Source of the DNA: Oceanidesulfovibrio indonesiensis
GTDB taxonomy: Bacteria; Desulfobacterota; Desulfovibrionia; Desulfovibrionales; Desulfovibrionaceae
Length of the DNA stretch: 64,000 bases
NCBI RefSeq assembly: GCF_007625075.1
Contig: NZ_QMIE01000001.1
Coordinates: 186,001-250,000, forward strand
Reading direction: 5' to 3'
Part shown: positions 11,491 through 61,617 of the stretch, piece after piece
Layout of the letters: each line of letters opens with the position of its first letter
How positions within the stretch are numbered: the stretch's first letter is position 1
The notes under the pieces: generated by a model
Seen by the model: the letters and a program-made list of their open reading frames with translations, nothing else
The model's database searches: none
Told to the model about the DNA's origin: nothing
Translations under genes and position numbers: made by a program

Positions 11491-11697
11491 CTAGACGGTT
11501 TTGACCACGTTGGCCGCGCGTGCGCCCTTGTCGCCGTGTTCGATGTCAAAGGAAACGCGATCGCCCTCGTTCAGGGTTTTGAAGCCCTGGGACTGGATGG
11601 CGGAGTAGTGCACGAACACGTCGTCACCCTCTTCGCGCTGAATGAAACCGAACCCTTTTTTTTCGTTGAACCATTTCACAGTGCCTTCGTACGCCAT
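11491..11697 (-). CDS. Cold-shock domain protein (CspA family)
   Basis: A 68-residue single-domain nucleic acid chaperone. The RNA-binding motifs RNP1 (KGFGFI) and RNP2 (DVFVHYSAI) are intact, and the start [13 protein letters not shown] is typical. The longer open frame upstream is not needed. It is one of two adjacent csp genes on this strand; the other starts 288 bases upstream and shares most positions. Likely cytoplasmic, binding single-stranded RNA or DNA during cold shock or growth change. Confidence 0.93.
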
Positions 11698-11781: not shown

Positions 11782-11985
11782 CTAACAGCAGCGCACGACA
11801 TTGGAAGCCCGGGGGCCCTTGTCGTTCTCTTCGAGTTCGAAGGTGACAGCGTCGCCTTCCTGCAGGGTTTTGAAGCCATCGGACTGGATAGCCGAATAGT
11901 GGACAAAAATGTCCTCGCCGTCATCGATACTGATGAAACCGAACCCTTTCTTCTCGTTGAACCACTTGACCACGCCTTGGGCCAT
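11782..11985 (-). CDS. Cold-shock domain protein (CspA family), second copy
   Basis: A 67-residue paralogue of the neighbouring csp, with KGFGFI and DIFVHYSAI. The ATG giving [12 protein letters not shown] is preceded by AGGAGG at a normal distance; a GTG two codons earlier would be too close to it. The C-terminus ends in RCC, two cysteines that the other copy lacks. About 230 bases of upstream non-coding DNA leave room for a long cold-shock leader, though no cold box was identified with confidence. Confidence 0.92.
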
Positions 11986-33270: not shown

Positions 33271-33396
33271 TTTATTGCTGGGAGCAAGAAATATTAAACT
33301 TCTTGCTCCCGCGGCGTTCGCCGCGTGGCCCGCCTGGAGCGTGGCCGTCATTATAAATGGGGCGCGAAAATGTAAGAATTTTCTGCTCCCAGTAAT
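33271..33396. repeat. REPIN-like palindromic repeat, copy 1
   Basis: About 125 bases nearly identical to the element at 45000-45126. It has mirrored ends (GCTGGGAGCA at the left, TGCTCCCAG at the right). Inside, a left hairpin (GGGAGCAAGAA / TTCTTGCTCCC), a GC-rich middle with GCGGC-GTTC-GCCGC, and a right imperfect hairpin follow in order. It lies between pstC and the BI-1 gene, followed by about 240 bases of further non-coding DNA before that gene. Confidence 0.85.
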
Positions 33397-33633
33397 ATGA
33401 CGTTGCATGTCGGGAGCATGGAGAAAATATCACTGTTTCAACAACGGGATCGGGGAGCAAGGGGGCAGTATCGGGGATGGCGGAGGAGCCCGAGTCTTTC
33501 GTGCACGCGTGCAGCGGCCGGTGTCGTCCGGTTCTTCTTGCCAACCGGCATTGCCGCTGTTATTTAATGAACTCTCTCAAGCCAAGAAGCCACCACGCGT
33601 AGAAATTTTCATACCCTCGGAGGAGAAAAACCA

Positions 33634-34356
33634 ATGCCTTACAACGACTCTGTCGCTTCGCGTACCGGAGCGAGGGCCGAAGTGGTCAACGCGTTCATGC
33701 GCGGCGTGTACATGTGGATGTCACTCGGACTGCTCGTCACAGGCGGCGTCGCCTGGTACGTCGCCAATACCGAGGCTGTGCTGCGGCTGTTCTTCACCCC
33801 GGAAGGCGGCGTCTCCATGCTGTTCTGGGGCCTTGTCATCGGCCAGCTGCTCATGGTCGTGGGCCTGTCCGCGGCCATCTCGCGCATGTCCGGCACCATG
33901 GCTACGGGCCTGTTCATGGCGTATTCCGCGCTCAACGGCATAACCATTTCGTTCATATTCCTGGCTTACACCCAGGCGTCCATCGTCTCCACGTTCCTCA
34001 TCTGCGCCGGCATGTTCGGGGCCATGAGCCTGTACGGACTGACCACCAAGAAGGACCTCACCAGCTGGGGCAGCTTCCTGTTCATGGGCCTCATCGGCGT
34101 TATCATCGCCTCGGTGGTGAACATCTTCCTCATGAGCTCCATGATGCACTTCATCATCAGCGTCATGGGCGTCATCGTGTTCACCGGCCTCACTGCCTAT
34201 GACACACAGCAATTGCGGGTGATGGGCGAAACCATGCCCGAAGACGACGCCACGGCGGTTCGCCGGGGCACCATCCTCGGCGCGCTCAGGCTCTATCTGG
34301 ACTTCATCAACCTCTTCCTTATGCTGCTCAGGCTGTTCGGAACAGGTCGCGAGTAA
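33634..34356 (+). CDS. Bax inhibitor-1 family membrane protein
   Basis: A 240-residue protein with seven hydrophobic segments, of the YccA/YbhL BI-1 family. These proteins act as pH-sensitive cation (Ca2+) leak channels or bind the FtsH protease. The conserved C-terminal acidic pattern is visible as FTGLTAYDTQQLR followed by GALRLYLDFINLF. The ATG follows a good ribosome binding site (cggaggag). A terminator follows, so it is probably transcribed alone. Confidence 0.92.
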   Translation: MPYNDSVASRTGARAEVVNAFMRGVYMWMSLGLLVTGGVAWYVANTEAVLRLFFTPEGGVSMLFWGLVIGQLLMVVGLSAAISRMSGTMATGLFMAYSALNGITISFIFLAYTQASIVSTFLICAGMFGAMSLYGLTTKKDLTSWGSFLFMGLIGVIIASVVNIFLMSSMMHFIISVMGVIVFTGLTAYDTQQLRVMGETMPEDDATAVRRGTILGALRLYLDFINLFLMLLRLFGTGRE

Positions 34357-44377: not shown

Positions 44378-44534
44378 GGAATTCTCCTTTGCATGAATAC
44401 GGTTGGTAGCGCAGGCAGCGTGCCGCCAGCGCTACGGACACTCCAGACAATAGCCGAATCATAGCTTTCCCAAGACGTTCTTTCAAGATACTTTCCATAT
44501 TTCCTGGGGAAATTCATATGGATGGGTATTTCCC

Positions 44535-44636
44535 GGGAAAAGGTTCCGCCAGGAGAAGGGTGTTGAGTGTTGCGGCTCCGGAGGCCACGACGCCGGCGGC
44601 GGGAAAAGGTCCCGCCAGGAGAAGGGAATTGAGTGT
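44535..44636. repeat. Two direct repeats of about 36 bases
   Basis: 44535-44570 and 44601-44636 match at about 33 of 36 positions (both begin GGGAAAAGGT and end TTGAGTGT). The second lies within a GGCGGG/CCCGCC hairpin. They sit in the 368-base intergenic region between desulforedoxin and the DUF3096 gene, which otherwise holds only a GTAGCGC/GCGCTAC inverted repeat near 44406. No gene is seen there. Confidence 0.7.
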
Positions 44637-44745
44637 CCACCTGTCCGGCGGCGTGTCGCGCAGCAGTGAAATTTTGTGCTATGGTGTCCGCTGGTGCGGC
44701 GCCGGGCCGCATGATTCGAACGAGATACAGCAGGAGGTTTTCCCA

Positions 44746-44883
44746 ATGAACATGAACATTGCGTTGCAGCCGTTGCTGGCCCTTATCGCCGGCATTCTCA
44801 TTCTGATCATGCCGCGTTTGCTGAATTATGTAGTCGCGATTTACCTTATAGTCGTAGGTGTTATGGGGCTCTTGAAACTGTAG
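44746..44883 (+). CDS. Small membrane protein, DUF3096-like
   Basis: A 45-residue peptide (MNMNIALQPLLALIAGILIL...) made almost wholly of two hydrophobic helices joined by MPRLLNYVVA. Length and sequence match the DUF3096 family of tiny inner-membrane proteins with unknown function. AGGAGG lies 10 bases before the ATG, which supports real translation. It stands alone; the next gene is about 360 bases away beyond a palindromic repeat. Confidence 0.75.
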   Translation: MNMNIALQPLLALIAGILILIMPRLLNYVVAIYLIVVGVMGLLKL

Positions 44884-44999
44884 GGGATTGATTCGAGGCC
44901 GTCACGAAAGGCGGCGATGCCGGGCGAGAGGAGCGGAGCTGGGTAGAGCAGCCGTCTTCGCCCGGCGTTGTCATGCGGCGTGGATGGCGGGGGAGGATA

Positions 45000-45126
45000 A
45001 TATTACTGGGAGCAAGAAATTTTAAACTTCTTGCCCCCGCGGCGTTCGCCGCGTGGCCCCGCCTGGAGCGTGGCCGCCCTTATAACTGGGGCGCGAAAAT
45101 GTAAGAATCTTCTGCTCCCAGTGATA
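45000..45126. repeat. REPIN-like palindromic repeat, copy 2
   Basis: About 126 bases, over 90% identical by eye to 33271-33396. Ends are ATTACTGGGAGCA (left) and TGCTCCCAGTGAT (right). The left arm folds (GGGAGCAAGAA with TTCTTGCCCCC), then GCGGC-GTTC-GCCGC, then GGCC pairs, then the right arm, which matches the single element at 61572-61617 in reverse. Differences between copies include T/C changes within stems. It lies directly upstream of the TrkA/Usp gene. Confidence 0.88.
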
Positions 45127-45242
45127 TTGTCCGTGCATCCGAAACGTCGGACTAGCCTAGCTCCCCCGGGATGGTTTATCCTGCCCGAATGGAAATACCC
45201 GATTTCAGAAAAGCTCCGGGCAAAGGGACGGATGCAGTCGGC

Positions 45243-46661
45243 ATGCGCATTCTGATGTGCGGAGCCGGCCGGATAACGCGCGAGCTGCTCAAGGCCCTGG
45301 GCAGCGGTTGGAAAGTGACGATCATCGACAAGCAGGAGAAGGCGACCAAGGCGGCGGGCTCCATCTACCCCGACGTGGTGAAGACGTTCACCGAGGACGC
45401 CACCAGCCCTGTGGTGCTGGACCATGCAGGCATGAAGCAACAGGACTACGTGCTCGCGCTCATGTCCGACGATGAATCGAACCTCGTTGTTGCGCGGCAG
45501 GCCGTGGACGCCGGGATCAAGCATGTGCTTTCGATCGTGCGCGATCCGGAGAATCTGGAGAAATTCAGAAGTCTGGATATCCGGCTGGTGCCCACGGAGT
45601 CCATGCCCGCGAACTCCATACTGCATTATCTGCAGGACCCGGGAATCCACGTGACGCCATTGGTGACCGGCGACGTCAGCGTATTCGAACTGGACGCGGC
45701 TGACCATTTCCGCATCGTGGGTCGTCCGGTCTCCGCCTTCAACGGCGAGACTCACCGGCTGGTGGGCATCATGCGCGGCAACGAACTCGTTTTTCCGGAT
45801 GACTCCATGGTCATCTCGTCCGACGACAGGCTCATGGTCATCGGCAAGCCCGAAACCTTCAAGACATTTTGTGCGCTCATCGAGTGCGGAAATCCGCATT
45901 TTCCGCTGGCTTTCGGGCAGGGGCTTCTTCTGGCGTTGCCCGCCGGCACATATTCCGAACTCTCCCGCCTGCTGAACAAGGGACTGTATCTGGCGCAGAA
46001 CACCCAGGTGAAGCGCGCCACAGTGCTGTGTCCCGGCGAGGAGTGCGGGATGGACGCCCTGGCCAGGGACTGGCCCCTGGGCATTTCCCTGAGCGTGAAG
46101 CGCGTGGAAGAGGGCAATATTCTGGATGCCGTGCGCGACGTGTACGAAAAAGGCACGTACGGCCTGGTTGTAGTGCCGCCGCTGGAGAGCGGATTCCTGA
46201 GGCAATTCGGCAAGCCGCGCCTCATCAGTTTGTCGCACGAGCTGGGTTGTCCGGTGCTGGTGGCGCGATTCTCCATGCCGTACGAGCGCATCCTTGTGCC
46301 CTTCAGCGGCACGACGAGGGCCGAGCAGGCCCTTGGCATCGCCGTGGATATAGCCAAGCAGCTGGACTGCACCATTACCGTGGCCGTGGTGGAGGAACCG
46401 GAGATCATCAGCGGCGAGGAAGAGGGCAAGGGTACAGAGCAGATTCTGACCCGCATCCGCGAGCTTTCGCGCATCCATAAGATGACGTTTGAAGAGGTGG
46501 TGCGCCGGGGCAACCCGGTGAAGGAATTGGTGAAACTCTCAGGCTTTCACGATCTGCTCGTTGTGGGGGCCACCAGTCTGGAGCCGGGCATTTTTTCCGC
46601 AAACGTAGGCGAGCATCTGGCCGAGAAGGCGAGTTGCTCCGTGCTCATCGTGGCCGGCTGA
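45243..46661 (+). CDS. TrkA-type NAD-binding regulator fused to universal stress domain
   Basis: A protein of about 472 residues with a TrkA-N Rossmann domain (MRILMCGAGRITRELL), a TrkA-C domain (about 130-205), and a C-terminal universal-stress-like part (YERILVPFSGTTRAEQALGIA..VGATSLEPG..CSVLIVAG). It probably binds nucleotides and gates the antiporter encoded 10 bases downstream. The start is uncertain: ATG at 45243 opens the Rossmann fold directly, while in-frame ATGs at 45171 and 45189 add 24 or 18 residues. No strong ribosome binding site decides. Confidence 0.85.
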   Translation: MRILMCGAGRITRELLKALGSGWKVTIIDKQEKATKAAGSIYPDVVKTFTEDATSPVVLDHAGMKQQDYVLALMSDDESNLVVARQAVDAGIKHVLSIVRDPENLEKFRSLDIRLVPTESMPANSILHYLQDPGIHVTPLVTGDVSVFELDAADHFRIVGRPVSAFNGETHRLVGIMRGNELVFPDDSMVISSDDRLMVIGKPETFKTFCALIECGNPHFPLAFGQGLLLALPAGTYSELSRLLNKGLYLAQNTQVKRATVLCPGEECGMDALARDWPLGISLSVKRVEEGNILDAVRDVYEKGTYGLVVVPPLESGFLRQFGKPRLISLSHELGCPVLVARFSMPYERILVPFSGTTRAEQALGIAVDIAKQLDCTITVAVVEEPEIISGEEEGKGTEQILTRIRELSRIHKMTFEEVVRRGNPVKELVKLSGFHDLLVVGATSLEPGIFSANVGEHLAEKASCSVLIVAG

Positions 46662-61571: not shown

Positions 61572-61617
61572 TATTACTGGGAGCAGAAAATTTTTACATT
61601 TTCGCGCCCCAGTAATA
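61572..61617. repeat. Palindromic repeat, single unit (copy 3)
   Basis: ATTACTGGG at the left and CCCCAGTAAT at the right are mirror images. Between them GCAGAAAATTTTTACATTTTCGCG matches the right arm of the elements at 33271 and 45000 read on the other strand. This shows the family exists as single units and as inverted doublets. It lies about 100 bases before the YbhB-family gene. Confidence 0.85.

Follow-up and report, generated by a model that had tools for sequence, protein, structure and literature searches.

A 126-nt intergenic repeat with sharp TA ends and four covarying hairpins, probably a miniature mobile element of Desulfovibrionaceae

The element and its neighbors in the window

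The window analyzed here is a 64,000-nt stretch of the Oceanidesulfovibrio indonesiensis genome, in which a short repeat lies between the gene for a DUF3096 small protein and a gene encoding a TrkA_N/TrkA_C/Usp protein. The first-pass annotation had placed a REPIN-like repeat at 45000 to 45126; the repeat is real, and this copy, a full-length 126-nt member of what we term subfamily A, runs from 45001 to 45126. Its ends are sharp (TATTAC...GTAATA) and form a 14-bp terminal inverted repeat, with TATTACTGGGAGCA on the left and TGCTCCCAGTGATA on the right, and the element contains four local hairpins. The features in the window are as follows.

44746 to 44883, plus strand: DUF3096 small protein gene, upstream neighbor of the element
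45001 to 45126, plus strand: full-length element, subfamily A, 126 nt
45001 to 45014, plus strand: left terminal inverted repeat, TATTACTGGGAGCA
45008 to 45038, plus strand: hairpin 1, which covaries across genera and across host subfamilies
45039 to 45052, plus strand: hairpin 2 (GCGGC..GCCGC), nearly invariant
45055 to 45075, plus strand: hairpin 3 (GGCCCCGC..GCGTGGCC)
45085 to 45122, plus strand: hairpin 4, with an asymmetric internal loop, which covaries across genera
45113 to 45126, minus strand: right terminal inverted repeat, TGCTCCCAGTGATA in this copy and TGCTCCCAGTAATA in the family consensus
45171 to 46661, plus strand: TrkA_N/TrkA_C/Usp protein downstream of the element, longest ORF, start uncertain
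33273 to 33397, plus strand: second full-length copy, 125 nt
33634 to 34356, plus strand: Bax1-I family gene downstream of the second copy
61572 to 61617, minus strand: 46-nt solo copy, consistent with deletion from a full element, junction ACTGGG

The two full-length copies differ by eight substitutions and one single-base length difference, the latter as first annotated. The accompanying claim that the differences lie outside the main stems is wrong, as four of the nine fall in stems (45035 in hairpin 1, the indel at 45057 in hairpin 3, and 45086 and 45109 in hairpin 4) and none of these is compensated. The third copy in the window corresponds to a full element without its middle, joined at a 6-nt direct repeat, ACTGGG, with 45 of 46 positions matching. 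One further solo form (L076) has the same structure, lacking the middle between two ACTGGG repeats (45/46 matches), and for another (L104) the deletion would run from one TGCTCCC repeat to a second (45/45); the fit is poorer for L105 (43/45), which has no shared junction. We take these solo forms as products of the long form, probably arising by deletion, and not as its building blocks.

Three other repeats were noted in the window. An inverted repeat, GCCGGGCGA...TCGCCCGGC, occupies 44919 to 44966 directly 5′ of the element, a stretch that is absent in G001, a genome of the same genus. A 37-nt direct repeat, 92% identical, lies 5′ of the DUF3096 gene (44534 to 44570 and 44600 to 44636), and a 184-nt direct repeat of 73% identity is found at 11504 to 11687 and 11795 to 11978.

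Copies, boundaries and distribution

Searched at the DNA level, the host genome yielded 40 long matches with E values from 5e-66 to 8e-40 (40 scored of 102 candidates), which places the element far beyond chance, and 18 short matches besides. With a covariance model we obtained 119 matches in the same genome (150 scored of 2939 candidates), and merging of overlapping hits gave 108 distinct places for the element or its relatives, a number that includes weak matches (down to 26 bits), short forms and fragments. The model scores extend from 144 to 26 bits and thus indicate copies of several ages: the host harbors the young subfamily A, a subfamily with other hairpin sequences and TATTACTCAGAGCA ends, and older copies that resemble those of G001. 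We read this as the outcome of several rounds of spread.

The boundaries were defined in an alignment of subfamily A that holds 43 rows from 44 copies (two L069 copies had the same name); four truncated or deleted rows were taken out for the boundary counts, leaving 39, and were kept in the first mismatch count given below. All 39 rows carry TA on the right and all but one carry it on the left as well, so that 38 of 39 have it on both sides; beyond these dinucleotides the sequences are no longer conserved. Outside the ends, these 39 rows share no common flank sequence; a direct repeat of 2 to 3 nt occurs in one row, and none carries a direct repeat of at least 4 nt, such that any target duplication, if there is one, would be of the TA itself. 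The family is short, non-coding, bounded by terminal inverted repeats and dispersed in many copies, all traits of miniature inverted-repeat elements (MITEs).

For 48 of the 108 places the surrounding genes were examined, and no copy overlaps a predicted gene by more than 15 nt, with genes predicted by a codon-usage script that misses some small ones, for example the DUF3096 gene beside the element at 45001 to 45126. These copies lie between tandem genes (27), divergent genes (9) and convergent genes (6), or at edges (6), both flanking genes being visible for 42 of them. The first-pass annotation described both window copies as ending shortly before a coding gene, and the longest TrkA/Usp ORF does begin 44 nt downstream; the copy at 33.3 kb is 236 nt from the Bax1-I ORF at 33634, and among the 48 copies the spacing to the start or end of a gene differs greatly from one copy to the next.

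Both full-length window copies are missing from the corresponding syntenic gaps of G001, where gene order is the same around both sites, the empty sites having diverged too far to reveal the precise position of an insertion or whether TA was duplicated. Loss in G001 instead of gain in the host is possible for these sites. None of the eight full G001 copies with flanks occupies the same site as any of the host loci compared. One candidate for a common insertion (L073/L089) was set aside because the two copies occupy one intergenic gap at different positions, which points to independent insertions. Three further candidate pairs from blastn past the element (L099/L008, L207/L008 and L103/L025) proved on recheck to have non-homologous flanks, the single flank match being 29 nt in opposite orientation.

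Across the family, the covariance model gave matches in 12 of 288 genomes. Three of these are built differently, leaving nine carrier genomes in seven genera, among which G031 and G210 have one place each and G100 has decayed copies. The weak model matches set aside, in G198, G055 and G024, differ in their ends or layout. Those in G024 (L145 and L152) are related hairpin elements of greater length (≈153 nt) that end on one side in TATTAGTGGGAGCA and hint at a wider superfamily; in G055 and G198 (L147, L151 and L153), another repeat family with successive hairpins and GATAAGATCGCAAAGC at one end gives a weak model match. A class-wide sample of 348 genomes added a weaker match in one genome of another family (G060). 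One pattern scan of genome contigs found no match, and a second returned 30 stretches, 22 of them in a single Desulfovibrionaceae bin (JADFXV01); of the other eight, seven resemble lone hairpins and one, in a Deltaproteobacteria bin (L173), has the same layout and end, with the copy located around 208 to 237 and carrying a CAGTAATA end. Plasmids, phages and, with a single pattern, viral contigs gave no match, in sets that may omit records near the host.

Considering copy number, boundaries and placement, we read the family with good confidence as a MITE, non-autonomous and comparable in kind to ERIC, RUP and Correia elements. Its copies have probably been dispersed through the intergenic DNA of Desulfovibrio-like bacteria by mobility of the element.

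Fold, covariation and the case for an RNA

The copy at 45001 to 45126 folds more stably than its shuffles, with z = −5.96 as DNA and −7.77 as RNA. To evaluate which pairings are maintained, we used a cross-genus set of 27 sequences from six genomes and five genera (A1), made up of 18 of 22 copies from relatives (four near-duplicates dropped, three trimmed by 2 to 4 nt at the left end) and nine host sequences, one of which is a typed consensus. In this set, the four local hairpins are paired in 88.3% of cells versus 83.3% in shuffles. Double-changed cells number 62 versus 21.7, and none of 500 shuffles matches the covariation score of the hairpins, although 35 of 500 match the number of further pair types; all of these shuffles ignore the relatedness of the sequences. 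Sliding the hairpin partners drops pairing to 45 to 50%. Hairpins 2 and 3 are nearly constant and contribute little evidence alone, and little covariation is countable in hairpin 2 in particular because it is nearly invariant.

A second alignment, of host subfamilies (A2), comprises 23 of 35 older host copies and 13 others; the 12 short or decayed host copies dropped from it bias the test toward finding structure. Hairpin 4 was left uncounted because the rows are misregistered in that segment. Hairpins 1 to 3 show 57 double-changed cells versus 25.4 in shuffles and a covariation score reached by 0 of 500, whereas two of the five measures are no better than shuffles (220/500 and 237/500); these shuffles, too, ignore relatedness.

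End-to-end pairing of the element shows no such excess, as 138 of 500 shuffles attain its covariation score. This pairing is nevertheless the lowest in consensus energy by a small margin (−59.4 kcal/mol versus −56.8 kcal/mol for the local hairpins). Covariation analysis, suggested in the first-pass annotation as a check, therefore bears out the four local hairpins and not the long pairing.

Within the young subfamily A, of the 68 base pairs that changed, just one did so on both sides with pairing kept. Stems there mutate less than loops, at 72 of 2958 positions (2.4%) versus 122 of 1944 (6.3%). We interpret this as constraint acting on those lineages that replicate, though it could include selection on individual copies. 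Hairpins 1 and 4 are weaker in many older copies than in young ones, with exceptions in both directions, and the middle segment of most copies is indistinguishable from its own shuffles, whatever their age.

A strong RNA fold, covarying hairpins, fewer mutations in stems than in loops and a location near genes are also features of a regulatory RNA, that is, a terminator, attenuator, mRNA stabilizer or leader retained for its function at each site. To these may be added two promoter-like sites that overlap each other (minus strand, 44997 to 45026) and read leftward out of the left end, versus 0.3 expected in the scan of this copy; an outward promoter at the left end is conceivable, here and in other copies. 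Other observations argue against an RNA. Among copies between tandem genes, 11 are oriented with the genes and 16 against them, so that no orientation rule is apparent, and a consensus scan of 44700 to 45300 found no terminator-like site inside the element. An RNA would tolerate G·T mismatches on one strand, yet these are not in excess over A·C mismatches in any count (20 versus 36 and 15 versus 31 in subfamily A; 29 versus 38 and 45 versus 48 in further counts), giving no sign of an RNA preference. The imbalance of 15 versus 31 has p = 0.026 when shared ancestry is ignored and, if real, would favor G·U on the opposite strand. Further evidence against retention at each site comes from the weaker hairpins 1 and 4 of many older copies and from the finding of no common sites within the genus. 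Rfam gave no match above the gathering score and only three subthreshold microRNA matches. We consequently judge a regulatory RNA very unlikely, and the role in transcription termination or mRNA leaders entertained in the first-pass annotation finds no support in orientation, distances to genes, mismatches or the terminator scan.

The search for a mobilizer and comparison with known systems

The transposase families searched were Y1, the RAYT type, and DDE_3, the IS630 type. Y1_Tnp has no match in the host or in the carriers G001, G023, G027 and G043; among the seven carriers covered, only G006 and G031 have Y1 matches, compared with 50 of the 99 genomes covered in all, so no association with the element is seen. 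DDE_3 likewise has no match in the host, and just one of eight carriers, host included, has any. Pairs of element ends at the spacing of an insertion sequence were sought by eye in the host, a 330-contig draft; none was seen in 100 of 109 places nor in the 19 places of a second set, and an autonomous insertion sequence with the element's ends was thus not encountered. Pfam identified no transposase among 18 of the 19 gene segments between neighboring host copies, five of these 18 being without any match. Recurrent neighbors, considered as candidate mobilizer genes, are of common kinds in the first 25 clusters inspected by eye, none transposase-like; they include an ABC ATPase family (loci of four genomes), a sensory PAS protein (three) and a third family (three). 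The draft assembly could hide a transposase gene.

Under the preferred reading of a MITE, the ≈126-bp unit is bounded by TA on each side and combines a terminal motif resembling TATTACYNNGAGC with the four local hairpins. A transposase acting in trans would recognize the ends together with the adjoining DNA hairpins and would insert copies at TA in intergenic DNA. Inserted copies would then decay, largely without compensation, while those lineages still replicating would retain the ends and hairpins. A related possibility is that the element moves as single-stranded DNA guided by its hairpins, through an enzyme that belongs to neither the Y1 nor the IS630 type. Covariation that favors local hairpins beside each end over end-to-end pairing points this way, as does mismatch use without a G·T preference; the terminal inverted repeats and TA ends, however, fit a double-strand, TA-specific transposase equally well, and no enzyme was found for either, so that we consider this possibility unlikely. 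A further proposal, also unlikely, is a miniature mobile DNA long resident in Desulfovibrionaceae, selected for its string of four hairpins and not for end pairing, and moved by a hairpin-recognizing, non-Y1 HUH/non-IS630 enzyme.

Our searches of the literature on repeats and MITEs in Desulfovibrio and Desulfovibrionaceae, and for the end sequences as text, found no description of the element, subscription papers aside. The family therefore appears to be an undescribed intergenic mobile repeat of Desulfovibrionaceae whose fold is kept by compensation across genera, and, since neither tested mobilizer is detected in the host, the family is a tractable system in which to look for what moves bacterial miniature elements.

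Four known systems invite comparison. REPINs are intergenic, inverted pairs of hairpins with singlets as remnants (PMC3116915), and the 126-nt element shares this organization: it is palindromic, its copies are dispersed between genes, its related hairpins are arranged as an inverted pair, and its shorter singlets could derive from the full unit by deletion; to this extent the name REPIN-like was apt. It does not extend to mechanism. A true REPIN, two inverted REP hairpins moved as single-stranded DNA by a RAYT (Y1 HUH) transposase, could draw on the Y1 matches in G006 and G031, but the host and most carriers covered lack such a match, the long central hairpin is without covariation despite being the minimum-energy fold, with four local hairpins in its place, and no GTAG tag is seen at the ends in the alignment by eye. 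We regard it as highly improbable. REPs tagged with CGTC are palindromes without a dedicated transposase (PMC3733652), as appears to be the case here; in subfamily A, however, CGTC sits between hairpins 3 and 4 and is not an end tag, and copies from other genera mostly have CGTT or CGTA in its place.

RUP of Streptococcus pneumoniae, a 107-bp intergenic element with 108 copies and a TA target (PMC2229807), is similar as a short intergenic repeat with many copies and TA at its ends. RUP ends match those of IS630-Spn1 (PMC2229807), whereas seven of the eight carriers of the 126-nt element, host included, are without an IS630 DDE_3 match; an IS630-driven, RUP-like element was accordingly rejected for the host. 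Finally, the enterobacterial ERIC (IRU, RU-1), compared by its published features alone, is a highly base-paired 127-bp intergenic repeat with TA at both ends and a terminal inverted repeat (PMC2229807, PMC2267715). The element described here resembles it in length, intergenic location, TA ends, terminal inverted repeat and strong base pairing; ERIC is described as one long stem-loop, whereas here it is the four local hairpins that covary and not the pairing of the ends.
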